Shown here one piece after another: positions 1 through 13,568 of a DNA stretch of 20,097 nucleotides; the stretch's first letter is position 1; every line of letters begins with the position of its first letter. The notes under the pieces were generated by a model. That model was not told where the DNA came from and did not search any database. It saw nothing but the letters and a program-made list of their open reading frames with translations. The stretch comes from a virus, in IMG/VR virus record IMGVR_UViG_3300035162_001546, positions 1 to 20,097 of that record; one strand, given 5' to 3'. The position numbers were made by a program, and so were the translations under genes.

Positions 1-33
1 CAGACCTGTTGTCTCAACATCAAATACTATCAT
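1..33 (-). CDS. Start of a DnaQ-type 3'-5' exonuclease or exonuclease-first DNA polymerase (partial)
   Basis: The minus strand of the first 33 bases starts with ATG at 33 and reads MIVFDVETTGL. DVETTGL is the ExoI motif of DEDD-type 3'-5' exonucleases, in which the Asp and Glu bind the catalytic metals. The motif sits at the very N-terminus, as in stand-alone DnaQ-like proteins and in some phage family-A DNA polymerases that begin with the proofreading domain. The start overlaps the stop of the 65-aa gene in an ATGA arrangement, so it continues the same operon as the glycosyltransferase and nucleotide enzymes. The rest lies beyond the left edge, so exonuclease and polymerase cannot be told apart here. 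Confidence 0.7.
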   Translation of the reverse strand, partial: MIVFDVETTGL

Positions 34-230
34 CACAGAGCCTTCTTAATTCTATAGTTTCCAAATACTTGACCATCCAGCAATTCATCCCACATTCCTT
101 CTGGAGATTTTTTTCTTTTATAATCCATCATCTCTTGATGTTTCTTTTCCTTCATCTCTTCACGACTTAGTGGATTTTTCCTTTCTCTAGCACGTTTTCG
201 ACTACGTTGTTCTTCCGTTAGATTTCCCAT
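33..230 (-). CDS. Small basic protein of unknown function (65 aa)
   Basis: A 65-residue, highly charged protein. Residues 8-42 are dominated by Arg, Lys and Glu (RSRKRARERK near the start, then EEMKEKKHQEMMDYKRKK), which suggests a single long charged helix, possibly nucleic-acid binding. The C-terminal third (SPEGMWDELLDGQVFGNYRI) looks more like a small folded patch. I do not recognise the family. The gene overlaps the end of the glycosyltransferase gene by 29 bases and its TGA overlaps the ATG of the exonuclease-like gene, so it is probably translated by coupling. The ribosome binding site is weak (GGATGG about 9 bases upstream). The tight context supports it being real. Confidence 0.6.
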   Translation of the reverse strand: MGNLTEEQRSRKRARERKNPLSREEMKEKKHQEMMDYKRKKSPEGMWDELLDGQVFGNYRIKKAL

Positions 231-1050
231 TTTTTAATACCATCCCATAATTATTAATTTTTTGTGGCACAACTAAACCTTCTCTAAGAATCAATCTGTT
301 TTTCTTAAACGGTTTATAGTTAACGTGGTGATGCCACCTACCAAATTTCCAAGAAACAGTTGCGACATCAGGGTGTTGTTTTTGCAAACTTTCTGCAAAC
401 TCTCGCCTGTTGTCGGTGTCTTCATAAACTTCACCAGTGTTGCCTCCCTTCATCCTCATTGTAGTTACCTTGCCACAGAGGAAAGCATTAAACAAAATTG
501 TGCAATTCCCATCTTTTAGAACTCTTAAACTTAAATCTGTGTCCTCATTATATTTGCCACGCCATTTTTGATGCAAATCATTTTGGATAAGTATGCAGCT
601 ATAAATTCTTGTGTTTAAATAGTACGGTGGCACTCTGTCCGTGTTCTTACAAAAATTATAATAGTTCATCCCACTCAGAGGTACATTTTTATATCGTTCA
701 GTGAAGTCCTCACAACATCTAAAAATAGTTCCGTCTGTGACCTTTGGCTTCATGTTAAAATTTAACCTGTGAAAACCTTCCAAGTTATCATCTACAATCC
801 AGTGCCTCTTGTCGTTGTTTTTAATTGAGTGATCCCACACAAAATTTCGTACTGGTATTGAACCTTGGCCCAAATTAGAAAATGGCGTTACCAATATATT
901 TGCAGAAGGCCACTCGCTTCGATATTCGTTTTCTTCTTGAGGCTCGACAACCAGATAAAATGGAACATTCATTTCTGTTAGCTCTCTGGCAGTTAAACAC
1001 CTTTTTGGTCTGCCTTTGCTAATCACATAAATTGGGTATCTAGGATTCAT
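202..1050 (-). CDS. TET-associated-type glycosyltransferase (TAGT family), predicted DNA base glycosyltransferase
   Basis: A 282-residue protein that I recognise as a member of the TAGT family. This family was defined computationally in phages and in the eukaryotic GREB1 proteins and is predicted to add sugars to hydroxylated bases in DNA. Visible features are the N-terminal YPIYVISKGRP at 5-15 (first strand and nucleotide-sugar site), a VEPQEE segment at 35-40, IVDDN at 85-89 as the DxD-like metal and sugar-nucleotide motif, DFTERY at 115-120, KYNEDTDLSLRVL at 166-178 (a likely acidic catalytic stretch) and MKGGNTGEVYE near 200-210. The length fits a complete single-domain enzyme. It overlaps the preceding 80-aa gene by 11 bases, and similar gene pairs recur in phages as I remember them. 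The substrate base and the sugar donor cannot be read from the sequence. No base hydroxylase or hydroxymethylase lies in the window. Confidence 0.85.
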   Translation of the reverse strand: MNPRYPIYVISKGRPKRCLTARELTEMNVPFYLVVEPQEENEYRSEWPSANILVTPFSNLGQGSIPVRNFVWDHSIKNNDKRHWIVDDNLEGFHRLNFNMKPKVTDGTIFRCCEDFTERYKNVPLSGMNYYNFCKNTDRVPPYYLNTRIYSCILIQNDLHQKWRGKYNEDTDLSLRVLKDGNCTILFNAFLCGKVTTMRMKGGNTGEVYEDTDNRREFAESLQKQHPDVATVSWKFGRWHHHVNYKPFKKNRLILREGLVVPQKINNYGMVLKNGKSNGRTT

Positions 1051-1282
1051 TTACATATCTCTTTTTGCTATTAATCCCACGAACCAATTTTGGATGCCAA
1101 ATGCTTTTTGTTTTCGCATTAAGCTTCTGACCAATCATTTCAGCGAATTCTTGGAGGTCTTCATCATTTGCAAAACGAACGATTAGCTTTGAATAAGGCT
1201 CCTGCTTTTCTTGGACAAACTCTGGCATATCTTGCCATTCTTTTTGCCAAGCCAATTCAAACAACTCATCTTGTTTTTTCAT
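1040..1282 (-). CDS. Small TAGT-partner protein of unknown function (80 aa)
   Basis: An 80-residue protein with a compact alpha/beta core: a predicted strand IVRFAN at about 33-38, a helix DEDLQEFAEMIGQKL, then KTKSIWHPK and a C-terminal YVNES. The pattern of strand, EDL-x-EF-helix, IGQ and KTKS-I/L-W-aromatic/His-P is one I recall from small phage proteins encoded beside TAGT glycosyltransferases and also appended to ParB-like phage proteins. Its biochemical role is unknown to me. It overlaps the glycosyltransferase gene by 11 bases and the upstream diphosphohydrolase-like gene by 17, so all three are probably made together. The start has a good purine-rich site (GGGGGGAAGAAG) directly upstream. 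Confidence 0.7.
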   Translation of the reverse strand: MKKQDELFELAWQKEWQDMPEFVQEKQEPYSKLIVRFANDEDLQEFAEMIGQKLNAKTKSIWHPKLVRGINSKKRYVNES

Positions 1283-1613
1283 CTTCTTCCCCCCGAATAA
1301 TAAATTCTAGTACAGCTAATGCATTCCACGCCTCATGTGCTGCATGATGTAAACTAGATTCTTGGTCATATGTTTCAGTGTAGCCTTGCATCATATGTCG
1401 TGCCTTAGCTTGAGAATACCTAGCAATAGGATCCTTAACTTCCTGCCAACCATTTATTGAATATTTGGTAGCTCCGTAGGTGGTCACTTCTGCCACTGCC
1501 AAAAGCGCCCTGCTAAACCCAGATAACATTAGGTCTACTTTAGGTTTATGAGAATCCAATTTAGCACCAGCCTGATGCTGATCGATCCCATCAGGATCTT
1601 CTTGTTTTGCCAT
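1266..1613 (-). CDS. dATP/dGTP diphosphohydrolase N-terminal family protein (DUF5664-like, 115 aa)
   Basis: A 115-residue all-helical protein resembling the family once called DUF5664, now named dATP/dGTP diphosphohydrolase N-terminal (MazZ-like). Motifs in order are KLDSHKPKVDLM, ALLAVAEVTTYGATKYSINGW, RYSQAKARHMM, and ESSLHHAAHEAWNALAVLEF. The Glu, His and Asp residues in these helices would bind metal as in MazG-type pyrophosphatases. Members are expected to hydrolyse purine deoxynucleoside triphosphates. In phages whose DNA carries 2-aminoadenine, MazZ removes dATP and dGTP. No PurZ is visible here, so that specific role is not supported. I chose the ATG at 1613 over the in-frame ATG at 1631 because GAGGAAGGGAAG lies just upstream of the former. 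Confidence 0.75.
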   Translation of the reverse strand: MAKQEDPDGIDQHQAGAKLDSHKPKVDLMLSGFSRALLAVAEVTTYGATKYSINGWQEVKDPIARYSQAKARHMMQGYTETYDQESSLHHAAHEAWNALAVLEFIIRGEEDEKTR

Positions 1614-1809
1614 CACTCTTCCCTTCCTCATATGCCTCTTGAATTTTTACTTCAATAATATCTAGAAGCTCTTTTGATTTAGTGTCAGGTTTATTGGCTC
1701 GCTCAATTGTTTCTTTTAGCCTGTCTCGTGTCGTTGCATTGATGTCAAAGAGGCGAGCTACCTTCTCGTTATCAAGCTCAATGTCGTTGCCGACTAAATA
1801 TATATCCAT
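1591..1809 (-). CDS. Small protein of unknown function (72 aa)
   Basis: A 72-residue protein beginning MDIYLVGND. After a short N-terminal strand it is mostly charged helix (VARLFDINATTRDRLKETIE, then LLDIIEVKIQEAYEEGKSDG). I do not recognise a family. The start at 1809 is preferred over the in-frame ATG at 1860 because AGGGGA lies just upstream and its A is shared with the TGA of the phosphatase gene (TGATG), a typical coupled junction. Its 3' end overlaps the diphosphohydrolase-like gene by 23 bases. A role near nucleotide metabolism is suggested only by position. Confidence 0.6.
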   Translation of the reverse strand: MDIYLVGNDIELDNEKVARLFDINATTRDRLKETIERANKPDTKSKELLDIIEVKIQEAYEEGKSDGKTRRS

Positions 1810-2300
1810 CAATAATCCCCTGGGGCGACTTGGAGGCAGGTCAGCCCCTCTCCCCTCCACATATCAACACACTCGTTCCTGTCCTCAAGGACAAACCAAA
1901 CTTGACTGAAGTCATAGAGCTTCAAGAATTCATCATTGAAAACTTTTCTCTTTATGTATGCATCAGTCACGCTGTTCCCAGTTGGTCGCATCAGTAATCC
2001 ATCACACGGAACATCATGGATCTTGAGCCACTCCATTGTCTTCTTTCTAACAGAATTGCTTCGAGCAGTGATCATAACAACTTCGGTCTCCTCATCTTTC
2101 AGACCTCTTATGATGTTACAAACATTTTCAATTGGAGCGTCCTTTGACCCGACTAAGGTTGCATCAATGTCAACGATGATTACACGCTTCCGTCTTCTGC
2201 GCTCATCCAGAGCTTCACGCTTTTGCTCAGGGGTGGTGTAAGGTGACGAAGACTTTGACAATAGGTCAGCGGTGGTGTGATCTTTAATGTCGTGGTTCAT
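1809..2300 (-). CDS. HAD-superfamily phosphatase resembling the 3'-phosphatase domain of T4 polynucleotide kinase
   Basis: A 163-residue protein whose C-terminal 125 residues carry the HAD motifs: VDIDATL at 43-49 (motif I, nucleophile D44 and acid D46), MITAR at 76-80 (motif II Thr), the KRK region around 117-119 (motif III Lys) and FVLEDRNECVDMWR at 136-149 (motif IV acidic pair). The ending EGLTCLQVAPGDY closely resembles the end of the phosphatase half of T4 Pnkp. The kinase P-loop half of Pnkp is absent, so this is a stand-alone phosphatase. It may remove 3' phosphates from nucleic acid or dephosphorylate (modified) nucleotides, and the sequence does not decide which. The first 35 residues are polar and probably disordered. 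Translation uses the recurrent AGAAAGGAATT site, which overlaps the stop of the gene before it. Confidence 0.8.
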   Translation of the reverse strand: MNHDIKDHTTADLLSKSSSPYTTPEQKREALDERRRRKRVIIVDIDATLVGSKDAPIENVCNIIRGLKDEETEVVMITARSNSVRKKTMEWLKIHDVPCDGLLMRPTGNSVTDAYIKRKVFNDEFLKLYDFSQVWFVLEDRNECVDMWRGEGLTCLQVAPGDY

Positions 2301-2312
2301 TTTAATTCCTTT

Positions 2313-2801
2313 CTAAAACTGGTTTAAGATCTTTCTTCTGCGAATAGAATTGTTCTGCCATTCTGGGTGGTTCTCTTTCCCAACTGGAGCATCCCAGTTC
2401 CCAGCAACGATGCCACAGAAACCCATCAGATCAATTTCTGATGTCAAGTGTGCATCAGCATTGCCATGTAACATTGGGTGAAATTTTTGCCCATTGGTTT
2501 CTAATGTCACCAGATATCTTTGGTGTTCGTCAAAAGATTTTTTACTTTTATATTTGAAGTGATCTTTCAGAGCCATCCAATATCCAACATCATAAGCAGT
2601 TTCTGTGCTGTCTCCAACAGCCAATAAAATATTAGAGCTTACCATCTCTTGGCCTTGAGCAAAAACCATTTTTGATTTATCTGTCCTTCCCTCTGGAGAG
2701 AGAGAAGCTATCAGACCTCTTGGTGAAAAATAATCAAATCCAAATTTTTCAAATTCAGGAATAACTTTCTCTGCATCCCCAGAGACATAAATCTTTATCA
2801 T
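2313..2801 (-). CDS. Nucleoside 2-deoxyribosyltransferase-like protein (162 aa)
   Basis: The fold signature fits the nucleoside deoxyribosyltransferase superfamily: an N-terminal strand MIKIYVSGDA, FDYFSPRGL at 22-30, an SSNILLAVGDSTETAYDVGY segment at 55-74, and a following strand RYLVTLE. The stretch D64-S-T-E-T-A-Y-D71-VGYWMAL corresponds to the D-x-G-T-x-x-E-x-GYA motif, whose Glu is the nucleophile in characterised enzymes. Here that position appears to be Asp71, so activity or chemistry may differ. Enzymes of this family exchange or hydrolyse the N-glycosidic bond of deoxynucleosides or nucleotides. The C-terminal half (NPHPMLHGNA-like region, IDLMGFCGIVAGNW) is unusual for the short family members. 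It lies between the lipoprotein genes and the phosphatase in one operon, suggesting nucleotide salvage or modified-nucleotide metabolism. Confidence 0.55.
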   Translation of the reverse strand: MIKIYVSGDAEKVIPEFEKFGFDYFSPRGLIASLSPEGRTDKSKMVFAQGQEMVSSNILLAVGDSTETAYDVGYWMALKDHFKYKSKKSFDEHQRYLVTLETNGQKFHPMLHGNADAHLTSEIDLMGFCGIVAGNWDAPVGKENHPEWQNNSIRRRKILNQF

Positions 2802-2929
2802 TTCTTCTCCTCCTTGTCAGTCATGTTTGTCCCAATGGTCTGGATGTCTTTGCCTAGACCAGCGATTGTATTGCCACAGCCAGAAGTTAGCAGGGTGACA
2901 ATGACAGCAATGATTATCATGTTTATCAT
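2798..2929 (-). CDS. Entericidin-like small lipoprotein (43 aa)
   Basis: A 43-residue reading frame that begins MINMIIIAVIVTLLTSGCGN and continues TIAGLGKDIQTIG before a charged KEEKK tail. The hydrophobic segment ends in TSGC, a lipobox that puts the lipid-modified cysteine at residue 18. The following N-T-x-A-G-x-G-K-D-I-Q-x-x-G pattern is the hallmark of entericidin A/B lipoproteins, bacterial membrane proteins linked to programmed lysis. Its ATG overlaps the TGA of the preceding lipoprotein gene (ATGA), and its own TGA overlaps the ATG of the next gene, so it fills the gap exactly. In a phage it might affect the envelope, but that is speculation. Confidence 0.7.
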   Translation of the reverse strand: MINMIIIAVIVTLLTSGCGNTIAGLGKDIQTIGTNMTDKEEKK

Positions 2930-3225
2930 TTTGTGTCCCCAACTCTGGTTGCAGTTCTTCGTGCAGCCTCAACCAAACTGGATGTCATGCAAGTAACATT
3001 GATTACAATTGGTGTGATGTAATTGTTTACCTTGATCTTGGAGTAGATCATCACTGGGCGAAGGTCTGCCGATCTACACTCTTCAATAGCAGCTATAACT
3101 TCTTGCCGCTCCATCATCTCAACCTGCCTGTTGTGCAAGTTAAGCTCCATGCTTGGTGGCTCCGTGTTGGAGGAGCACCCAGCGAGTGCTGCCCCAGCTA
3201 GTAACGTGGCGAATAGCTTTCTCAT
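2926..3225 (-). CDS. Predicted lipoprotein of unknown function (99 aa)
   Basis: A 99-residue protein with a type II signal peptide: MRK, a hydrophobic run LFATLLAGAALAG and a lipobox ending at Cys17, followed by Ser-Ser, which favours outer-membrane sorting. The mature part contains VEMMERQEVIAAIEEC and a strand-rich segment (PVMIYSKIKVNNYITPIVIN), then a VTC motif. Two further cysteines (in EEC and VTC) could form a disulfide in the periplasm. I do not recognise a family. Its start shares one base with the stop of the 95-aa gene (TAATG) and its stop overlaps the entericidin-like gene. Two adjacent lipoproteins could act together, for instance in envelope alteration or lysis, but no Rz/Rz1 signature is visible. 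Confidence 0.7.
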   Translation of the reverse strand: MRKLFATLLAGAALAGCSSNTEPPSMELNLHNRQVEMMERQEVIAAIEECRSADLRPVMIYSKIKVNNYITPIVINVTCMTSSLVEAARRTATRVGDTK

Positions 3226-3512
3226 TATGCATCTCCCCTCGAAAGTTTAAGTGAAACAACAAGTGCTGCCTTTGAATGTGCACCTACCCACTCTTCACCT
3301 AATTCTTCCTTGGCAGCTTTGGTGTCTAACGTCATGCGGATGGCTTCCACTAATTTCAGGCCATGATCATCGTCAGTGCCAACAAAGAAATTAGTCTTTT
3401 GATCTTCCATCTCTGAAACGATTGCCTCTTTCAAAGCTTTCTTTTCAGTAGTCAATGCTCTGATCTTTGCGTCGATATCAAGGTGTCGTTGTACTGCTTG
3501 ATTGATATTCAT
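3225..3512 (-). CDS. Conserved-looking phage protein of unknown function (95 aa)
   Basis: A 95-residue protein with an N-terminal helical, probably coiled-coil part (LDIDAKIRALTTEKKALKEA) and a C-terminal alpha/beta part (FFVGTDDDHGLKLVEAIRMT, then a final SKAALVVSLKLSR). The organisation, with a helix and then a short segment with 'RMTLDTKAAKEELGEEW', is like several small phage proteins accompanying recombination or replication genes, but I cannot name it. Translation starts at an AGAAAGGAATTAAAATG site at 3517-3527, and a strong hairpin lies about 20 bases further upstream. Confidence 0.6.
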   Translation of the reverse strand: MNINQAVQRHLDIDAKIRALTTEKKALKEAIVSEMEDQKTNFFVGTDDDHGLKLVEAIRMTLDTKAAKEELGEEWVGAHSKAALVVSLKLSRGDA

Positions 3513-3546
3513 TTTAATTCCTTTCTAAGTTTTACTACTGCCTTAA

Positions 3547-3580: not shown

Positions 3581-3790
3581 TTATAAGTGGCTGTCAGGGT
3601 TTGCTAAGAAATAGTCTTCCCGCTGTTTGACCCATCGTTCAGCCTCTGCTTTTGAATCAAATTGAGTGTCAGTGTAAAACACTCCAGCTTGCCAAGATTC
3701 CACCCGCCAATCTCTGAATGTTTTTTCACCACTGGTATAAGTTCCGTGGTTCAGTATTTTAAATTCGATAACTGGTGATAAGTCTGTCAT
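3581..3790 (-). CDS. First gene of the P1 operon, unknown function (69 aa)
   Basis: A 69-residue protein with several aromatic-rich strands (VIEFKILNHGTY, RDWRVESWQAG, VFYTDTQFDSK) and a C-terminal helix AEAERWVKQREDYFL. The layout of strands followed by 'SKAEAERWVKQ' is common in tiny phage proteins of a single antiparallel sheet packed on a helix. No function can be assigned. It is the first gene after promoter P1 and is preceded by the AGAAAGGAATTAAA site at 3795-3805. The first position in a probable early operon is consistent with a regulatory or anti-host role, which is inference only. Confidence 0.65.
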   Translation of the reverse strand: MTDLSPVIEFKILNHGTYTSGEKTFRDWRVESWQAGVFYTDTQFDSKAEAERWVKQREDYFLANPDSHL

Positions 3791-3806
3791 TTTAATTCCT
3801 TTCTAA

Positions 3807-3908: not shown

Positions 3909-4523
3909 TTATGCATAATCTTCTTCTTTCTCTAAAGATTTTCTGCATGGTGGAATCCATATAAGCTTGGGGCTGTTGAACTTAAAATTTTTCTTCCAGA
4001 CAAACCAAGCATAGCTGGTGGCGGTGGATGCCTTCTTATCCAATCGCCCTTTGACCATTGGCACTCGCTCAGAGAATTGAGCAAAATGTGTTGGAGGGTT
4101 GAGATCAAAAAGTCTGTCGTATCTCCCAACGCTTTCTAAAAATACAGTCCTCGCTAAAATTGCCACGCCAGTCGATGCAACTTCATTTGCCTTATTAATA
4201 AATTCTTCTGCTAATCGAAACGGTGGATTAGTAATGACCCAGTTAAAATTCTTGTGAGAGCTGTCCAAAAAATTATTGACCTTGCCATATCCATAATCAT
4301 AAATATCAGAAGATTCCACTTCGTTGAAATACTCCTTCAAAACTTTTGACATATGTCCTTTGTTACAGGCTGGCTCTAAACACCTGCCCTTCGTGTCATT
4401 ATTTAAAACGTGCTCCATCAATGCACGAGTTGCCCACGGTGGTGTTGGGAAATCGTCTAGGCTATCTTTTGCTTCGTGTCTCTGTGCCATTACTGCGTGT
4501 GTTGTGTTTTGTTCAGATGACAT
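3909..4523 (-). CDS. DNA N6-adenine-type methyltransferase (204 aa)
   Basis: A class I S-adenosylmethionine-dependent methyltransferase. DFPTPPWATRALMEHVL at 24-40 is the typical N-terminal lead-in of phage methylases. LEPACNKGHM at 49-58 is motif I (SAM binding), SSDIYDYGYG at 71-80 carries the acidic residue after motif I, and ITNPPF at 97-102 is the catalytic motif IV of amino-methyltransferases. LARTVFLESVGRYDRLF and SYAWFVWKK follow as in related phage enzymes. No separate target-recognition domain or restriction nuclease is visible, so this looks like an orphan methylase that may protect phage DNA or mark replication. The start at 4523 (AGGGGA 11 bases upstream) overlaps the helicase gene by 11 bases. 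An upstream in-frame ATG at 4586 would overlap by 74 and is less likely. Confidence 0.8.
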   Translation of the reverse strand: MSSEQNTTHAVMAQRHEAKDSLDDFPTPPWATRALMEHVLNNDTKGRCLEPACNKGHMSKVLKEYFNEVESSDIYDYGYGKVNNFLDSSHKNFNWVITNPPFRLAEEFINKANEVASTGVAILARTVFLESVGRYDRLFDLNPPTHFAQFSERVPMVKGRLDKKASTATSYAWFVWKKNFKFNSPKLIWIPPCRKSLEKEEDYA

Positions 4524-5976
4524 AATGTCTAAATCCCCTTGGCCTGACGATGAATAAGTTTTCTTTGGCGCGAGTAGCTGCAACATACCAGACCCTATTC
4601 TCTTCGTCGGAGTGCGAGTTCTCCCACGACAGTCTGCCCATGTCAGTTAGCATTACAACATTGTCTGCCTCGCCACCTTTTGATTGGTGGATGGTTGAGA
4701 TTGAGATCCTTGGCTTGTCGCTAAACTTCTCGCCATTCCTCAAGACAGATCTCAGATACTCTCTCTCGTCTGGCGCAATGCCCCTGAGCATGGACATCCA
4801 ATCCTGTTGCCTTGCTGCATCTGGCAGACCGACATCTTCAATGCCGTAGCCCTCTTTTTTCTCTAGCGTTACATTGAACCCAAAAAACTGGATCATGTTC
4901 TTAGTTTCAAAGAGAGAGATGGTGTTGCCCTTGCGGATCTTCTCCCAGCTGATAATTGCACGAGTCTCTTCTGACTCTAGTGAGTGCTTGCCGTTGTATG
5001 AATATGAATAGCCCTGCTGCCTCGCAGATTGTTTTAGTCGATTGAGCATATACTTTGATCTGCTTAGACACATCCACGTTTTCTCACCAGAGAAATCAAT
5101 TTGTTGTTCGTCGGCAATATACTCAACGCTGCCCTCTTCAGTCTTCGCAGACCAAGGCTTGGCGTAACGGTTTTTGATCCTGCCCAAGATGCCCAACGAT
5201 AATTTGTGAATAGATCTTGGGACACGATAGCTCTGGGGCAGAACTCGCTTGTCACCTTTGAGGCTCAAGAACTTATTAACGTCTGCACCAGCCCAACCAA
5301 AGATGGCTTGGTCATCATCTCCAGCAATGTAAACTTCAGTGGCCTCTGATGCTGCAAGTATGGCCATTCGATATTGCAGTGACGAAAGATCCTGAGCCTC
5401 ATCAAAAATACAAACGTCAACTGGCAACGCTGAATTATATTGGTCGAGCATATCAGTGAAATCTAACAGGCCGTTTTCTTTTTTATATTTTTTAAGTGAC
5501 GCACCATATTGGTTTATGGCGTGAAGTGTCAGGTCATTGACGTTGCCAATATTGTATTGGTCTTCAATTGAACGAAGGCCAACTCTGGCCAGAGACTCCA
5601 CTCTTGAACATTTATCTCCAAGGCCATCTCCAGTGTGGAGGCCCAGCTCTTCATCGTAAATGCCCTTGAACTCAATCCCCAGCGCCTTGCCCAGCTTGCG
5701 ATAGTGTGAGTTGTTCATCACCTCGTCACGCTGCAGCTCCAACTGTTTAAATGCTAAAGAGTGGAGCGTCCTGAAAAATGGAAATCTTTTTTCATCAAGG
5801 CCAAATTGTGCCATTGCCCTCTCTTGAGCTTCATTCGCTGCCTTGCGAGTAAAAGCTAGGTATGCGATTCGCTCTGGTGGGATGCCTCTGTTGATTGCAT
5901 CTTCAACTATCTTTAGAAGTGTTGTTGTCTTCCCAGTCCCTGGTGGCCCCAGAATTATCTGAACGTGCCTCATCAT
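4513..5976 (-). CDS. UvrD/PcrA-like superfamily 1 DNA helicase
   Basis: A 487-residue SF1A helicase with all canonical motifs: GPPGTGKTT at 10-18 (Walker A), AYLAFTRKAANEAQERA at 38-54 (Ia), DFTDML at 172-177, CIFDEAQD at 189-196 (Walker B), AGDDDQAIFGWAGAD at 218-232 (III), LPQSYRVPRSI at 246-256 (IV), STIHQSKGGEADNVV at 427-441 (V) and VWYVAATRAKENLFI at 462-476 (VI). It should use ATP to unwind DNA 3' to 5' in replication or recombination. At under 500 residues it is shorter than bacterial UvrD (about 720), with reduced 1B and 2B domains, which is usual for phage forms. The site AGAAAGGAATAA precedes two adjacent ATG codons (5976 and 5973), and either could start. It overlaps the 88-aa gene by 74 bases. 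Confidence 0.93.
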   Translation of the reverse strand: MMRHVQIILGPPGTGKTTTLLKIVEDAINRGIPPERIAYLAFTRKAANEAQERAMAQFGLDEKRFPFFRTLHSLAFKQLELQRDEVMNNSHYRKLGKALGIEFKGIYDEELGLHTGDGLGDKCSRVESLARVGLRSIEDQYNIGNVNDLTLHAINQYGASLKKYKKENGLLDFTDMLDQYNSALPVDVCIFDEAQDLSSLQYRMAILAASEATEVYIAGDDDQAIFGWAGADVNKFLSLKGDKRVLPQSYRVPRSIHKLSLGILGRIKNRYAKPWSAKTEEGSVEYIADEQQIDFSGEKTWMCLSRSKYMLNRLKQSARQQGYSYSYNGKHSLESEETRAIISWEKIRKGNTISLFETKNMIQFFGFNVTLEKKEGYGIEDVGLPDAARQQDWMSMLRGIAPDEREYLRSVLRNGEKFSDKPRISISTIHQSKGGEADNVVMLTDMGRLSWENSHSDEENRVWYVAATRAKENLFIVRPRGFRHYVI

Positions 5977-6169: not shown

Positions 6170-6275
6170 CTTCTACTTCCTTTTTGCACGAGTCGCAAAT
6201 TATCCTGCCGTCCTTCTGCAAATAGTAGTGAGTTGTCTGGCCGCACCAAGGGCACTCTTTTAATTTATCATCCAT
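6141..6275 (-). CDS. Zinc-ribbon microprotein (44 aa)
   Basis: A 44-codon frame starting MDDKLKECPWCGQTTHYYLQ and ending in a basic, acidic-dotted tail (KKEVEDGQRRRKDS). Two knuckles, CPWCG and ICDSCK, separated by 15 residues, form a classic four-cysteine zinc ribbon. The ATG shares its A with the TAA of the primase gene (TAATG), and the 3' end overlaps the 88-aa gene by 29 bases, so it fills the gap precisely. Zinc ribbons next to primases often contact DNA or RNA polymerase, but a specific role cannot be assigned. Confidence 0.7.
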   Translation of the reverse strand: MDDKLKECPWCGQTTHYYLQKDGRIICDSCKKEVEDGQRRRKDS

Positions 6276-7804
6276 TAAAAATCTTCAGTGACTGAACTTG
6301 GAATATCAAGGTCATCGTCATCATAAAATTGAGGAGCAGGAACTGACCACACTTTAACTGGTTTTGATTTTATGCGAAAGGTTTTTCTGTCACCACCTAT
6401 CGTCCTTAGCCAAGACCAGACTTGATGTTGGGATGGATAGCGGAACCTCCTGCCCTCCAAATATATGAAGAGATCCTCACTCCTGAAATAAACTTTGTCT
6501 TCTTCTGGGTCATGCCAAGGCTTGCCATTCATCAATTCGTCACGGTGTCGAGCCTGAACCTTGCCAGTCAAAAATGAGTCGAGCATCTTCTCGAACTGAC
6601 CTTTTGGTGACGCATCGTCTGGGTCAATGATTACCTCAACAGAGTTTAACAGATCATTGATCCGCTGCTCCCACTGTTGGGCTGGCATTGTGCTGGGGCA
6701 CTTGTTTAGTTTCTCAACACAGATCTTCTGCAGCTGGCGCTGATCTAATAATTGCTGGGTAGTGATCTCAATCCGCTCGCCACCTATGTCAATATACCAT
6801 CTGACAGACTGTTTGTTTTCGGTCTCATATTTTGTGATTGCATCAATCTCAATCGACTGGCCACCCCCAACTCCACCAACGCCAAAATCTCGTTTGATGC
6901 ATTTTGACTTTTCACAGTAATTACAGATTGGGGATTGCTTGCAGGTGTATGCATAATCTTTTTTGCTGACAGACTTCACAAGTCCATTGACCTCACCACT
7001 GGGCAGAGGCTGATCTAAATTATCATAGTTGAAGCGCATGAGATCCTCTTGCCAGTCATCAGGATTTTTCTTGCGGTAGTAGACACCAACATTGAACAGA
7101 GAGATATTTCGTCCACCCTCTGGGAATCCCATTGTCATTATATGTTGGAGGCATGGTGGCCCATCTTCAAAATGTTTTGTCAGCTCTGGTTTGTATTTTT
7201 CCAGCTTATCAAAATTTGTTCTCTTCTTCTCAGCTAAATCTAGGAACTGTTTTAGTGAAAGCTTCTTGCCATTGTGGATTGCATATCGATCACTCTCATC
7301 ACCATCCCAGTAGCATAGGTTAATCCAGTTGCCCCGATCCATCTCATTTGCACGAGAGATCTGCTTTGGAAAAATCTCTACACCACCATAACCAAGGCCA
7401 GCTGCAAACTCATTTAACTTGGCAACCATGTCGATGGCCGCAATTGCTGGCTCGCAAAATAAATACAAGTGTGCGCCACCAGATTTTGATCGACACATGA
7501 CTAGGGGAGTGTCTCTTATTTTCTTCTCTAGCTCTTCTAACGTGTCCTTTAATTTAACTTCGCCACGGATGTCGATGTCGATGCAACCAAAGTTGCAGCT
7601 GTTGTCATCCTTCAGCATTATGATACCAAGAATATATTCTCCACCTTTTAGGTGGTGGCTAAAATTTTTCTCAGTTGCTGGCTCGCTTACTGTTACAGCT
7701 CTGCCCGATAGCTTCCCATCTGCCTCGTGTTTTTGGACACGGTACTGGCCGTGGGCAAGTGAATAGCCTTGGAATAAATCCATAAATCTTTTGGTCTCTG
7801 ACAT
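6275..7804 (-). CDS. Archaeo-eukaryotic-type (AEP/TOTE-like) DNA primase
   Basis: A 509-residue protein whose N-terminal 200 residues carry the AEP primase signature: FGCIDIDIRG at 72-81 with metal-binding D76 and D78, SKSGGAHLYLF at 106-116 with the catalytic His112, and EIFPKQ at 143-148 followed by GNWINLCYW, as in TOTE-type primases. A middle region (PPCLQHIMTMGFPEGGRN at 216-233, SLFNVGVYYRKK) is typical of phage primases of this group. A cysteine cluster follows, C288-x5-C294-x2-C297-x4-C302, then a Gly-rich linker VGGVGGG. The C-terminal 180 residues look like a winged-helix-rich accessory part. No helicase motifs are fused, so the separate UvrD-like helicase is the probable partner. 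It starts at an AGAAAGGAATGAGATG site directly after an intergenic terminator. Confidence 0.85.
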   Translation of the reverse strand: MSETKRFMDLFQGYSLAHGQYRVQKHEADGKLSGRAVTVSEPATEKNFSHHLKGGEYILGIIMLKDDNSCNFGCIDIDIRGEVKLKDTLEELEKKIRDTPLVMCRSKSGGAHLYLFCEPAIAAIDMVAKLNEFAAGLGYGGVEIFPKQISRANEMDRGNWINLCYWDGDESDRYAIHNGKKLSLKQFLDLAEKKRTNFDKLEKYKPELTKHFEDGPPCLQHIMTMGFPEGGRNISLFNVGVYYRKKNPDDWQEDLMRFNYDNLDQPLPSGEVNGLVKSVSKKDYAYTCKQSPICNYCEKSKCIKRDFGVGGVGGGQSIEIDAITKYETENKQSVRWYIDIGGERIEITTQQLLDQRQLQKICVEKLNKCPSTMPAQQWEQRINDLLNSVEVIIDPDDASPKGQFEKMLDSFLTGKVQARHRDELMNGKPWHDPEEDKVYFRSEDLFIYLEGRRFRYPSQHQVWSWLRTIGGDRKTFRIKSKPVKVWSVPAPQFYDDDDLDIPSSVTEDF

Positions 7805-8665: not shown

Positions 8666-9254
8666 TCTTTTCTCTCCTAATTTTAGCTCTACGGCCTGTG
8701 TAAATTTTAAACAGGTCATGTGGGACTTCTTTGCCTTCAGACATCCGCTCCTTGATGTAACTGTTCAAAGATGCTGGGTGTACTCCAACGCTACGTTTGT
8801 AATAAATCTTTCGATCACTCAGCTCTTTTGCAAAAGCATTGCAGTCTTCATCTTCATTACGTCCAAACTGAACCTCAACATTGCTCTTGATTAGGTCACC
8901 CGCTTTGTTATCGCGCAACCACTCAAAGCACTGCTGCTGGCGTATCTCAAGAGTAACTTTGTCATCACCTTTGGCACGATCAATCGCGCTGACAGATGGG
9001 ACAGATCCTGAGATTATGTCGTTAACTTCAACCTTCGAGCCGTTGCTCAAAGTAAAGTCTTTGACATTCAGTTCTTGCATTAGTTCGGGCAAGTCCTGTT
9101 CGGCCAACTTAGTGAGATCCTGCTTCTTTTGCTTCAACAGCTCATCAATGCGATTGATCTCGTTTTCAAGATCAAGCATACGACTTGCCATGTCAGCGAC
9201 TGCACCAATTTCATTGGACGATGGTGCAACGTCCTCAAGCAGATCTAATTCCAT
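8658..9254 (-). CDS. Coiled-coil phage protein of unknown function (198 aa)
   Basis: A 198-residue protein. Residues 20-62 form a predicted coiled coil (MLDLENEINRIDELLKQKKQ and following). There follow short strands (FTLSNGSKVEV), then a mixed region, and a C-terminal part with VGVHPASLNSYIKERMSEGK, DLFKIYTGRRAKI. The combination of 'VHP-x-SL-x-x-Y/F-x-KE' and 'P-x-DLF-x-x-Y/F-x-G' near the end is one I recall from many marine phage proteins of unknown role. It starts at an AAGAAAGGAATAGAAATG site and is co-transcribed with the acidic-tail protein that follows. A role in replication or recombination is suggested by context only. Confidence 0.65.
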   Translation of the reverse strand: MELDLLEDVAPSSNEIGAVADMASRMLDLENEINRIDELLKQKKQDLTKLAEQDLPELMQELNVKDFTLSNGSKVEVNDIISGSVPSVSAIDRAKGDDKVTLEIRQQQCFEWLRDNKAGDLIKSNVEVQFGRNEDEDCNAFAKELSDRKIYYKRSVGVHPASLNSYIKERMSEGKEVPHDLFKIYTGRRAKIRREKNG

Positions 9255-9256
9255 TT

Positions 9257-9619
9257 CTATTCCTTTCTTAATTCAAGGGCCACTGGCATATACCAGCCCT
9301 TACGACGATCTCGTTCTCCGTCTTCCTGATTTCTTTCCCAACGGAGAATTCTCACAGTTGGTGACATCTCACCTGCAATGGCAACGACTACCATGACAGC
9401 GATTGGGTCACCACCCCCAGGCCATAGGATATAATCTTCAGGCCCGAAGTCTTTCATTATTCTTCGAGCTTTTTGGATTGATGGGCCTGGTAAAAATTGA
9501 GGCTTGTCATTCTCCTCAAAGACAACTTCTAATGCACCATAACGAGATGCATCACTAAGGTCAGGTGTCCACCCAAACTTATTTTTTGTCGGTCGATTAA
9601 CTACGAAAACTTTTGGCAT
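9257..9619 (-). CDS. First gene of the P2 operon, unknown function (120 aa)
   Basis: A 120-residue protein beginning MPKVFVVNRPTKNKFGWTPD. It has a strand-turn start, a central YGALEVVFEEND, a short helix IQKARRIMKDFG, a Gly-rich turn DYILWPGGGDPIAVMVVVAI that looks like a buried strand-helix, and VRILRWERNQ near the end. I recall similar proteins (start 'FVVN-x-x-x-H/K-x-Y/F', central 'WPGGGDP') as uncharacterised proteins in marine phages. Function unknown. It is first after promoter P2, about 25 bases downstream of the expected transcript start, and uses TTTAGAAAGGACAG as ribosome binding site. Confidence 0.7.
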   Translation of the reverse strand: MPKVFVVNRPTKNKFGWTPDLSDASRYGALEVVFEENDKPQFLPGPSIQKARRIMKDFGPEDYILWPGGGDPIAVMVVVAIAGEMSPTVRILRWERNQEDGERDRRKGWYMPVALELRKE

Positions 9620-10313: not shown

Positions 10314-10337
10314 ACCATTTAGAAAGGAATTTAAATT

Positions 10338-10529: not shown

Positions 10530-10712
10530 ATGACTAGAGAAGTATACATAAAGATTCACAACAAGCTGATAGAAGAATATCTGGAAGAAAACCCAGAAGC
10601 TGACGCAGCTGAAGTCTACGACAAAACCGCTGACTTGGCTGGTGATGCGTATGGTGATTATCTAGCGACTAATGCTGATCTAGCTCGTGATCTTGCCAAG
10701 GATAAAACTTAG
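10530..10712 (+). CDS. Small acidic protein of unknown function (60 aa)
   Basis: A 60-residue acidic protein with TREVYIKIHNKLIEEYLEEN followed by a helical segment rich in Ala and Asp (AAEVYDKTADLAGDAYGDYL) and a tail DLARDLAKDKT. No family recognised. The ATG follows the previous TAA without a gap and has only a weak A-rich site, so translation probably depends on the gene before it. Its TAG stop lies inside the TTAGAAAGGAAT site of the following gene. The charge would suit a DNA mimic or inhibitor, but this is only a suggestion. Confidence 0.65.
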   Translation: MTREVYIKIHNKLIEEYLEENPEADAAEVYDKTADLAGDAYGDYLATNADLARDLAKDKT

Positions 10713-10724
10713 AAAGGAATTGAA

Positions 10725-10913
10725 ATGCAAATGAATCTTGCAAGGCAGACATACAACACAGCGATAAAGTTTTTGCGTGTTGAGGTTGAGGTGCGTAACA
10801 CTCCATATGAGGAGGCTCTAGAAAAAACTCTTGGGAGGTTTGCACTGGGACTAAACCAGATTGCTTGCCTCACCGAAACTGCCCACGGTGTATATGGGGA
10901 GGAAAACAAATGA
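10725..10913 (+). CDS. Small protein of unknown function (62 aa)
   Basis: A 62-residue protein with a helical core (ARQTYNTAIKFLRVEVEV, EEALEKTLGRFALGLNQIAC). I recognise no family. It is preceded by TTAGAAAGGAATTGAA, one of the best copies of the recurrent ribosome binding site. Its TGA overlaps the ATG of the next gene (ATGA), and GGGGAGGAAAAC, the ribosome binding site of that gene, lies within its last codons. Confidence 0.65.
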   Translation: MQMNLARQTYNTAIKFLRVEVEVRNTPYEEALEKTLGRFALGLNQIACLTETAHGVYGEENK

Positions 10914-11569: not shown

Positions 11570-12178
11570 ATGAAAACACCAGATGAGAAACCCAAAAAGG
11601 GCCGTCCACGCAAGCACCCAGTCAAAGAAGACCACGGTGTTGTTGTTAAGAGACCAGTTAAGAATGGGCCTAAGTTCAATCCTGATTCAATGTTGAGAAC
11701 AAAAGAAGAGCCAAAGGGCTGGGATGGTAGGTTCAAAAGTGTTGAGCCAGCTGTCCACCAGAAGCCAGCAAGGACTAGCAGATATAAGTGGAACCACCCA
11801 GCAACTATCAACTGGATCATGGGACAGGCTGACCCTGTCGGCTTCCTCGCTGCAGTCATGCAAGGCAAAGAGATCTTCCCAGTGTATGCAAAAGACCCTG
11901 ACGGCTTGGCAACAAAGGCTGGCAACATTTCTGCTGACCCAGAGCTTCGGGTCATGGCTGCAAAAACTTTGTTAGCTAAATGCATCCCAGATTTAAAGGC
12001 TGTTGAAATCACAGCGCAGATCGAAACAAGAAAGGTTCTGGATATCTCCAGATTAGATGACAATGACCTCACCACAATTGAACGAGTTCTTGAACACGCT
12101 GTCATTGAGTCAAGTGAGAGCGGAGAAGATGAGGAGATCTCTGAAGGAATTTACCAAGGGATGCTGGCCGACAATTGA
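11570..12178 (+). CDS. Putative terminase small subunit (202 aa)
   Basis: A 202-residue protein directly upstream of, and overlapping by 50 bases, the large terminase gene, the usual place for the DNA-recognition subunit of the packaging motor. The N-terminal KPKKGRPRKHPVKE contains a GRP core like an AT-hook and would contact DNA. A globular central part follows (NHPATINWIMGQADPVGFLA, then DPELRVMAAKTLLAKCIPDL, typical of small terminase-like phage proteins), then a helical and very acidic C-terminus (VIESSESGEDEEISEGI) that may bind TerL. No direct sequence motif proves the assignment, so context carries much of it. Confidence 0.6.
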   Translation: MKTPDEKPKKGRPRKHPVKEDHGVVVKRPVKNGPKFNPDSMLRTKEEPKGWDGRFKSVEPAVHQKPARTSRYKWNHPATINWIMGQADPVGFLAAVMQGKEIFPVYAKDPDGLATKAGNISADPELRVMAAKTLLAKCIPDLKAVEITAQIETRKVLDISRLDDNDLTTIERVLEHAVIESSESGEDEEISEGIYQGMLADN

Positions 12179-13568
12179 ACCTGCCAGTAACTTTGTTGAC
12201 AACTGGCACATAGATGCAATCAGTGATCACCTGCAAGCTGTTGTCGAAGGTGACATCAAACGACTGATCATTAACATTCCACCACGACACATGAAATCAA
12301 TCTCTGTTGCTGTTGCTCTTCCTGCTTGGACTTGGACTGTGCAACCTGCCAAGAAATTCCTGTTTGCGTCTTATGCCTCGTCTCTTTCGATTCGTGATTC
12401 AGTTAAGTGTCGGAGGCTTGTCGAAAGCCCTTGGTACAAAGAACACTTCGGTGAGATGTTTAAGTTGACTGGTGACCAGAACCAGAAGCAACGGTTTGAA
12501 AACGACAAGACTGGCCAGAGAATAGCAACGTCAGTAGATGGTGCGCTGACTGGTGAAGGTGGAGACATCATTGTCATTGATGATCCGCACAATGTCCGTG
12601 AAGCTGACTCGTCAACTGTTAGACAGGGAGTTCTTGAGTGGTGGGATCAGGCAATGCAGTCTCGCCTCAACGATCCAAAGACAGGTGCATTCGTTATTAT
12701 TATGCAGCGTGTCCACGAGAATGATTTGACTGGGCACATATTAGCAAACGAACACGAGGACTGGGATCACCTCTGCCTTCCTGCTCGTTATGAGGTTGGA
12801 CATCCGACACCAGTAAGGTCGAGCCTTTATTTCACAGATCCAAGAACAGAAGAAAATGAGCTTCTCTGGCCAGAAAGAGTAGATGATAATACGTTGTCAA
12901 ACTTAGAGAAGTCCCTTGGCAGTTATGCATCCGCTGGCCAGCTGCAGCAGAGACCAATGCCAAAGGGCGGTGGAATTCTAAGAGCGGAGTGGTGGGTTCC
13001 TTGGGAGAAAGAATCTCTGCCAGACATCGAATATGTCATCCAGTCATGGGACACAGCCTTCAGCACAAAAGAAAAAAGCTCTTATTCGGCGCGAACCACA
13101 TGGGGAGTGTTTAAGAAAGACGGCCAGATAAATGCCATAGTATTGGATATGTGGTATGACCGTGTCACCTACCCAGAGCTTCGTCGTATAGCTCAAGAAT
13201 CATATTATGAGTACGAACCTGATGCGGTATTGATTGAAAAGAAAGCCTCTGGCCAGAGTTTGCTTCAAGATTTGCGTATGGCTGGCATCCCTGTGCTTGA
13301 GTATTCGCCTGACAGAGACAAGGAAGCTCGTGCCCATGCATCGTCAGCTCTGCTCGAAGATGGAAGAATTTACTTTCCTGCAAATAAAAAATGGGCTAAT
13401 AACTTAATAGACATTTGTGCAGCATTCCCTGCAGGTGATAATGATGATATAGTTGATACCTGCACTCAAGCTTGGCTAAGGCTACGCAAAGGCTGGTTTG
13501 TAACTCATTCTGAAGATTATGAGGATGATGAACAAGAACCTAAAAGAAGGATAAGTATGTATGGCTAG
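12129..13568 (+). CDS. terL: Terminase large subunit, DNA-packaging ATPase/nuclease
   Basis: A 479-residue terminase. ATPase: IINIPPRHMKS at 47-57 (a PPR-x-x-KS type Walker A with Met in place of the usual Gly), ASYASSLSIRDS at 80-91, DIIVIDDPHNV at 146-156 (Walker B), and VIIMQRVHENDLTGHI at 189-204 (coupling motif). Nuclease, RNase H fold: QSWDTAF at 305-311, IEKKASGQSLLQDL near 370-385 and DNDDIVDT near 436-443, which supply the acidic metal ligands. It should translocate phage DNA into the prohead and cut it. I chose the ATG at 12129 (GCGGAGAAG just upstream). An in-frame ATG at 12057 would add 24 unrelated residues. The last 8 bases overlap the portal gene. Confidence 0.95.
   Translation: MRRSLKEFTKGCWPTIEPASNFVDNWHIDAISDHLQAVVEGDIKRLIINIPPRHMKSISVAVALPAWTWTVQPAKKFLFASYASSLSIRDSVKCRRLVESPWYKEHFGEMFKLTGDQNQKQRFENDKTGQRIATSVDGALTGEGGDIIVIDDPHNVREADSSTVRQGVLEWWDQAMQSRLNDPKTGAFVIIMQRVHENDLTGHILANEHEDWDHLCLPARYEVGHPTPVRSSLYFTDPRTEENELLWPERVDDNTLSNLEKSLGSYASAGQLQQRPMPKGGGILRAEWWVPWEKESLPDIEYVIQSWDTAFSTKEKSSYSARTTWGVFKKDGQINAIVLDMWYDRVTYPELRRIAQESYYEYEPDAVLIEKKASGQSLLQDLRMAGIPVLEYSPDRDKEARAHASSALLEDGRIYFPANKKWANNLIDICAAFPAGDNDDIVDTCTQAWLRLRKGWFVTHSEDYEDDEQEPKRRISMYG

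Follow-up and report, generated by a model that had tools for sequence, protein, structure and literature searches.

Which genes act together with the predicted DNA-base glycosyltransferase at the left end of virus record IMGVR_UViG_3300035162_001546, and what does the enzyme decorate? The whole record, 20,097 bases long, was analyzed and is referred to here as the window. The original prediction, made from the sequence, was that a TET-associated glycosyltransferase (TAGT) and several neighboring enzymes form a DNA-base hypermodification cassette. Our comparative analysis led to another composition of the system, in which the TAGT is paired with a small protein carrying a conserved domain, named MPEF after its motif. 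The two genes are:

202..1050, minus strand: TAGT glycosyltransferase, 282 aa (PF20691), with DDN (87-89) and NEDT (168-171) motifs intact.
1040..1282, minus strand: MPEF-domain partner protein, 80 aa, directly upstream of the TAGT gene and overlapping its start by 11 nt.

The TAGT was matched by PF20691 with 161 bits (E 4e-47; curated cut-off 27.5 bits), the whole model being covered (profile positions 1-205). Residues D87, D88, N168, and D170 were invariant across 86 dereplicated TAGT relatives, N89 was nearly so, and E169 and T171 were kept at 95-97%. A PDB sequence search with the window protein gave no meaningful match, and a structure model was made for L011, a naturally fused relative 55% identical to the window TAGT. 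This model had pLDDT values above 90 over most of the glycosyltransferase domain, and its best PDB matches in a fold search were solved GT-A glycosyltransferases, topped by collagen galactosyltransferases, which act on hydroxylysine. Profile score, motifs and the fold of the fused homolog upheld the original assignment of the 282-aa protein as a TAGT glycosyltransferase; on the modeled structure, it is a GT-A-fold enzyme with intact catalytic residues, and this fold suggests a nucleoside diphosphate (NDP) sugar as the donor.

The partner gene had been placed among several small proteins of the operon. It does code for a small protein, and it had not been singled out, yet it proved to be the conserved companion of TAGT. 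The MPEF domain follows the pattern W..MPEF...KTKS.W.P, with W16, M19-P20-E21-F22, F37, F46, Q52, W62, and P64 near-invariant and K-T-K-S at positions 57-60. When IMG/VR was searched starting from TAGT, the domain lay upstream of the enzyme or was fused with it in 35 of the 39 loci with a called TAGT; the other four start at a contig edge and could not be assessed, so that the pairing held in 35/35 assessable loci. It was likewise upstream or fused in all eight isolate phages examined. The reverse search, seeded with MPEF, yielded at least 496 confirmed viral loci, and among the best 80 of these a TAGT stood beside the domain in 76 (67 with a TAGT within 2 kb by open reading frame (ORF) calling, and nine in which TAGT immediately adjoined a domain that the ORF caller had missed); in one more, the TAGT was 2.7 kb off. 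In MPEF-seeded bacterial loci a TAGT was close in 19 of 21, one of the remaining two being cut by the locus end. Fused and separate forms were interspersed in the TAGT tree, where well-supported branches forced at least three label changes, indicating that fusion or fission has happened repeatedly. Neighborhood clustering found no third gene conserved in more than 10 of the 87 dereplicated TAGT loci. The window pair, with MPEF directly upstream, has the arrangement that defines this two-gene module.

Prophage forms of the module connected it to ParB. In prophages, MPEF usually formed the C-terminal end of a protein resembling ParB_N, TAGT came next, and in several loci the terminase genes came after it; in one contig ParB_N, MPEF, and TAGT were joined in a single 673-aa protein. 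In order to avoid seeding bias, an independent sample drawn from two bacterial phyla, about 790 genomes in all, was searched with the Pfam TAGT model. Three new TAGTs exceeded the cut-off, and a ParB-like gene overlapped the start in 3/3; MPEF was present in one of these ParB-like genes, and genes for the small (TerS) and large (TerL) terminase subunits followed one of the TAGTs. Lactobacillus gasseri phage jlb1 showed the order ParB-TAGT-TerS-TerL, with a distant TAGT and MPEF not matched. At locus L134 the pre-terminase slot was occupied by ParB_N fused to an N6/N4 DNA methyltransferase. This protein shares its ParB_N module and its position with the ParB-TAGT prophages, and it differs in that the methyltransferase stands where MPEF and TAGT stand there; the window copy is without ParB_N. 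The presence of a DNA methyltransferase in the slot of TAGT is the main, indirect evidence for TAGT acting on DNA. An earlier description of the TAGT-ParB link may exist in the paper that introduced the TAGTs (Iyer et al., 2013).

The phage itself was placed through its terminase:

12057..13568, plus strand: terminase large subunit, 78% identical to those of roseophages CRP-901 and CRP-902.

This identity places the window phage with the CRP-901-type roseophages. Since the genomes of CRP-901 and CRP-902 measure 52-53 kb, well over half of the phage genome is out of view. No TAGT was found in 22 TerL-related records including CRP-901 and CRP-902, and a 94%-identical TAGT was present in an unrelated phage, whose contig differs in both terminase and primase. 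This distribution indicates horizontal transfer and thus a mobile module. Three loci found by their TAGT (L039-L041) are also CRP-901-type by TerL; their TAGT is a different one (about 45% identical), an NAD epimerase gene comes after it near the terminase, and a ParB-MPEF gene was in view in two of them. L037, a close TAGT relative, has a DXD glycosyltransferase fused to ParB-MPEF (L037:3218-4522).

Further genes accompanied the pair in some loci: NAD epimerase, FkbM or other methyltransferase, a second TAGT or other glycosyltransferase, a nucleotidyltransferase-like gene, and radical SAM. None of these adjoins the window pair. They may make the sugar donor or tailor the sugar once it is attached. 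Methyltransferase-type genes lay between MPEF and TAGT at L194:5200-5703 (NPPY), L178:2356-3198 (class I), and L200:5197-5940 (FkbM), and tandem TAGT pairs were seen in L198, L244, and L130 (a viral contig, a bacterial contig, and Vibrio phage Kuja, respectively).

The other genes of the proposed cassette were then considered:

1..33, minus strand: DnaQ-like exonuclease, first 11 codons at the window edge (MIVFDVETTGL).
33..230, minus strand: small ORF, 65 aa, between TAGT and DnaQ, with no relatives found in Pfam, PHROG or locus comparison.
1266..1631, minus strand: dATP/dGTP diphosphohydrolase N-terminal-domain protein, 121 aa (PF18909, E 8e-23).
1591..1809, minus strand: small ORF, 72 aa from an ATG at 1809 (start read from the sequence), with a distant homolog in the CRP-901-type contig L119.
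1809..2300, minus strand: HAD phosphatase of PNKP type (PF25109, E 2e-24; PHROG polynucleotide kinase).
2313..2801, minus strand: eroded nucleoside deoxyribosyltransferase (NDT)-like protein, 162 aa, homolog of L099:171-776.

Much of what had been read from this region was borne out. Co-directional, overlapping minus-strand genes, as expected of one operon, were seen at 33-2801; the Pnkp-like phosphatase has its DxD motif intact (VDIDAT), and the diphosphohydrolase-family protein was confirmed for the N-terminal domain, the only one it contains. The reported run into a DnaQ-type gene has a DnaQ-like start, with just 11 residues inside the window. The deoxyribosyltransferase likeness proved correct for a homolog: the 162-aa protein had no match of its own in Pfam, PHROG or PDB sequence searches, and the CRP-901-type contig L099 codes for a 41% identical protein that is a true PF05014 member (E 1e-14). 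Compared with it, the window copy has lost the GPFF loop, and Asp replaces the Glu of the GTxxE motif, which we take to be the nucleophile. Cooperation of these genes with TAGT as a cassette found no such backing in their co-occurrence across dereplicated TAGT loci. Neither HAD-PNKP nor NDT homologs were present in any other TAGT locus fetched, a scan of the collection for NDT relatives gave as its sole match a chance fragment within a capsid-type ORF, and dGTP_diPhyd_N homologs were close to few TAGT loci (L002, L003/L004, and L124). The three genes were thus rejected as conserved TAGT partners, and since they are not regular companions, a multi-gene pathway is left without comparative support. 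What stands of the original prediction is its center, DNA glycosylation by TAGT, which is still the best reading.

We consider it somewhat more probable than the contrary that MPEF and TAGT function as a mobile two-component DNA-glycosylation module, acquired by a CRP-901-type roseophage, and, jointly with this, that the dGTPase-N, HAD, and NDT-like genes are variable-region genes of the CRP-901-type group outside the system, as their distribution in sequence comparisons suggests. The MPEF protein would most likely be a DNA- or substrate-targeting subunit of TAGT, equivalent to the ParB_N-MPEF protein of prophages, and the two together would most likely transfer a sugar onto phage DNA at a late stage of replication or thereafter, where it could block nucleases. 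The acceptor would either be installed by an unrecognized enzyme or be a group that an ordinary or methylated base already has. For the latter case, a self-sufficient MPEF/ParB + TAGT system that puts the sugar directly onto an ordinary or merely methylated base, with no separate hydroxylase or hydroxymethylase, can be envisaged, and we regard it as doubtful.

Several findings weigh against the DNA-glycosylation module. DNA as the acceptor is suggested by the family precedent of phage T6 (see below), whose enzyme scores only 36 bits against PF20691, and by the ParB_N link, in which part of the ParB_N matches fell under the Pfam cut-off; the 80-aa window partner contains no domain but MPEF and had no ParB match. 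The fold search with the MPEF domain gave no matches, and the MPEF region of the L011 model was low in confidence. TET/JBP proteins, found in 0/74 IMG/VR records (44 + 30) and in 0/84 when isolates were included, were searched for with a model for which no positive control passed the cut-off, and many of the records are fragments. Finally, large MPEF-TAGT phages have thymidylate synthase (TS) homologs.

The source of an acceptor hydroxyl was pursued further. The statement that no hydroxylase or hydroxymethylase lies in the window was confirmed, none of these families being matched among the window proteins scanned. TS-like proteins, a family that includes the dCMP and dUMP hydroxymethylases, were detected in 0/74 IMG/VR records, many of them fragments, and in none of 48 + 30 records, among them CRP-901, CRP-902, and related contigs, with a model that did give matches in control genomes and in large phages. 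Neither TS-like nor dCMP hydroxymethylase genes were present in the fully searched Vibrio phages 1.076.O and 1.124.O, and TET/JBP was found in 0/4 bacterial genomes, again with no positive control over the cut-off. The lack of a hydroxyl-installing enzyme thus looks like a property of this TAGT group and not only of a cut-off contig, within records of which many are fragments. In the TS homologs of Aeh1, henriette, Kuja, 65, and PTm1 (leaving aside a weak second PTm1 match), the discriminating Asn/Asp position is occupied by Asn, as in thymidylate synthase; this speaks against a dCMP hydroxymethylase and is compatible with a dUMP hydroxymethylase. In the homologs of Aeromonas phage 65 (L148) and Vibrio phage Kuja (L145), PCM replaces PCH at the active-site cysteine; from their sequences these two are possible dUMP hydroxymethylases. 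Radical SAM genes were seen between ParB-MPEF and TAGT (L245:1541-2581, Pfam-confirmed) and directly after TAGT (L243:6102-7082, by sequence only), and they are candidates for the missing acceptor chemistry.

Comparison with known systems placed the window TAGT within family PF20691 by its whole-model score, DDN/NED motifs, and GT-A fold; the window group differs in being paired with MPEF or a ParB-like protein and in that TET/JBP, for which no positive control was available, went undetected in the IMG/VR and isolate records searched. According to a recent report, the characterized family member ggt of phage T6 acts on DNA, putting a second glucose on alpha-glucosyl-hydroxymethylcytosine (alpha-glucosyl-hmC) (PMC13216743). 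This beta-glucosyl-HMC-alpha-glucosyltransferase belongs to the same Pfam family, and its WMIDDD and CEDM motifs align with the DD and ED positions of the window TAGT. It differs in being 18% identical in the alignment, in lacking MPEF, in adjoining the dCMP hydroxymethylase gene gp42, and in not being matched by the model of the MPEF-TAGT group. In the same report, TAGT occurs without alpha- or beta-glucosyltransferase in 288 of 753 phage genomes, and these enzymes are termed potentially novel transferases (Nucleic Acids Res 2026 gkag531, PMC13216743). The window TAGT resembles them in its solitary state; the passages of that paper considered here mention no dedicated partner, whereas one was identified in the present analysis. 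The TAGTs of Aeromonas phages Aeh1 and 65 have MPEF fused at their N-terminus, and these phages differ from the window in being large and T4-like, in having TS homologs, and in the fusion itself. Both lack gene 42 of T4 as well as its glucosyltransferase genes (Petrov et al., 2010, PMC2993671), and the Aeh1 enzyme was entered in a 2021 survey as a glucosyltransferase with unknown base (PMC8056088). CRP-901-type phages fall in the same family as the marine HTVC023P-type pelagiphages (PMC10149686), some of which have the hypermodification genes TS and aG/PT-PPlase1, with a putative glucosyltransferase located in the same region in some clades (PMC9599517); the TS is a difference, as no TS homolog was found in the CRP-901-type or MPEF-TAGT IMG/VR records searched.

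Three other explanations have to be weighed against the DNA-glycosylation module. TAGT might decorate a protein or surface glycan of the virion or host, with MPEF as acceptor-recognition subunit of an enzyme whose substrate is not DNA. The NAD epimerase, FkbM methyltransferase, and additional TAGT or other glycosyltransferase genes beside TAGT in some loci would suit such a role, as would the collagen galactosyltransferases among the best fold matches. The ParB_N association and the pre-terminase slot common to the ParB_N-DNA methyltransferase argue against it, as do the several TAGT loci that lie among replication genes and the activity of T6 ggt on DNA, and we hold this explanation to be unlikely. 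Alternatively, TAGT might act in the manner of T6 ggt, extending a sugar that a different glycosyltransferase, encoded outside the window, has put on a hydroxymethylated base; the window is after all a 20 kb fragment of a genome type of about 52 kb. The T6 reaction is itself a precedent, but that enzyme lacks MPEF and escapes the model of the MPEF-TAGT group; no dCMP-hydroxymethylase or TS-like gene was found in Vibrio phages 1.076.O and 1.124.O, and neither gene 42 nor the glucosyltransferase genes of T4 are present in Aeh1 and 65. This makes sugar extension quite unlikely.

A complete thymidine or cytosine hypermodification pathway, in which the dGTPase-like, NDT-like, and PNKP-like proteins work with TAGT and a hydroxymethylase is encoded in the unseen genome part, comes closest to the cassette first proposed. 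The genes concerned overlap within a single operon, RB69 provides a precedent with a PNKP-phosphatase gene in its arabinosylation cluster (PMC8056088), and the pathway genes of the HTVC023P-type family-mates point the same way. Against it are the lack of conservation of these neighbors with TAGT, the erosion of the NDT copy, and the absence of TS-like genes from the 48 + 30 records, so we judge such a pathway improbable.

Defining the system by two genes that are almost always paired (MPEF/ParB + TAGT) offers a way into the puzzle of "solitary" TAGTs raised in the literature, and the pairing makes the question of the decorated molecule testable: small cultured phages carry MPEF-TAGT without a TS-like gene, and the natural one-protein fusion, present for instance in Vibrio phage 1.076.O, suits expression and testing. 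If DNA is modified, the module would amount to a small and widely transferred system against nucleases, and it might make sugar-tagged DNA by an enzymatic route that is new; if the pair were self-sufficient, the route to hypermodified DNA would be unlike the pre-hydroxylated routes known so far.

The rest of the window has replication functions in its left part (AEP primase, UvrD helicase, Pam3-like proteins, and methyltransferase) and packaging and portal functions in its right part, and the sign of the GC skew flips near 10 kb. Use of a primase-polymerase has been stated for CRP-901-type phages (PMC10149686). The methyltransferase has relatives in CRP-901 and CRP-902 (L122/L123), which lack TAGT. 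A small predicted lipoprotein with weak likeness to Cor superinfection-exclusion proteins is encoded at 2926-3225 on the minus strand. Ahead of several window genes a 19-base string, TTAGAAAGGAATTAAAATG, is repeated with the start codon at its end; six matches with three or fewer mismatches were found in the window, against 0.01 expected. By its sequence and position it is presumably a repeated translation-initiation or leader element.

3909..4586, minus strand: phage DNA methyltransferase with TNPPF motif (PHROG 799, E 6e-60).
6275-7804, minus strand: AEP-TOTE-type primase (profile match).
2298-2316, 3510-3528, 3788-3806, and 9252-9270, minus strand: copies of TTAGAAAGGAATTAAAATG (string search).
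10319-10337 and 10709-10727 (the latter with 1 mismatch), plus strand: copies of TTAGAAAGGAATTAAAATG (string search).

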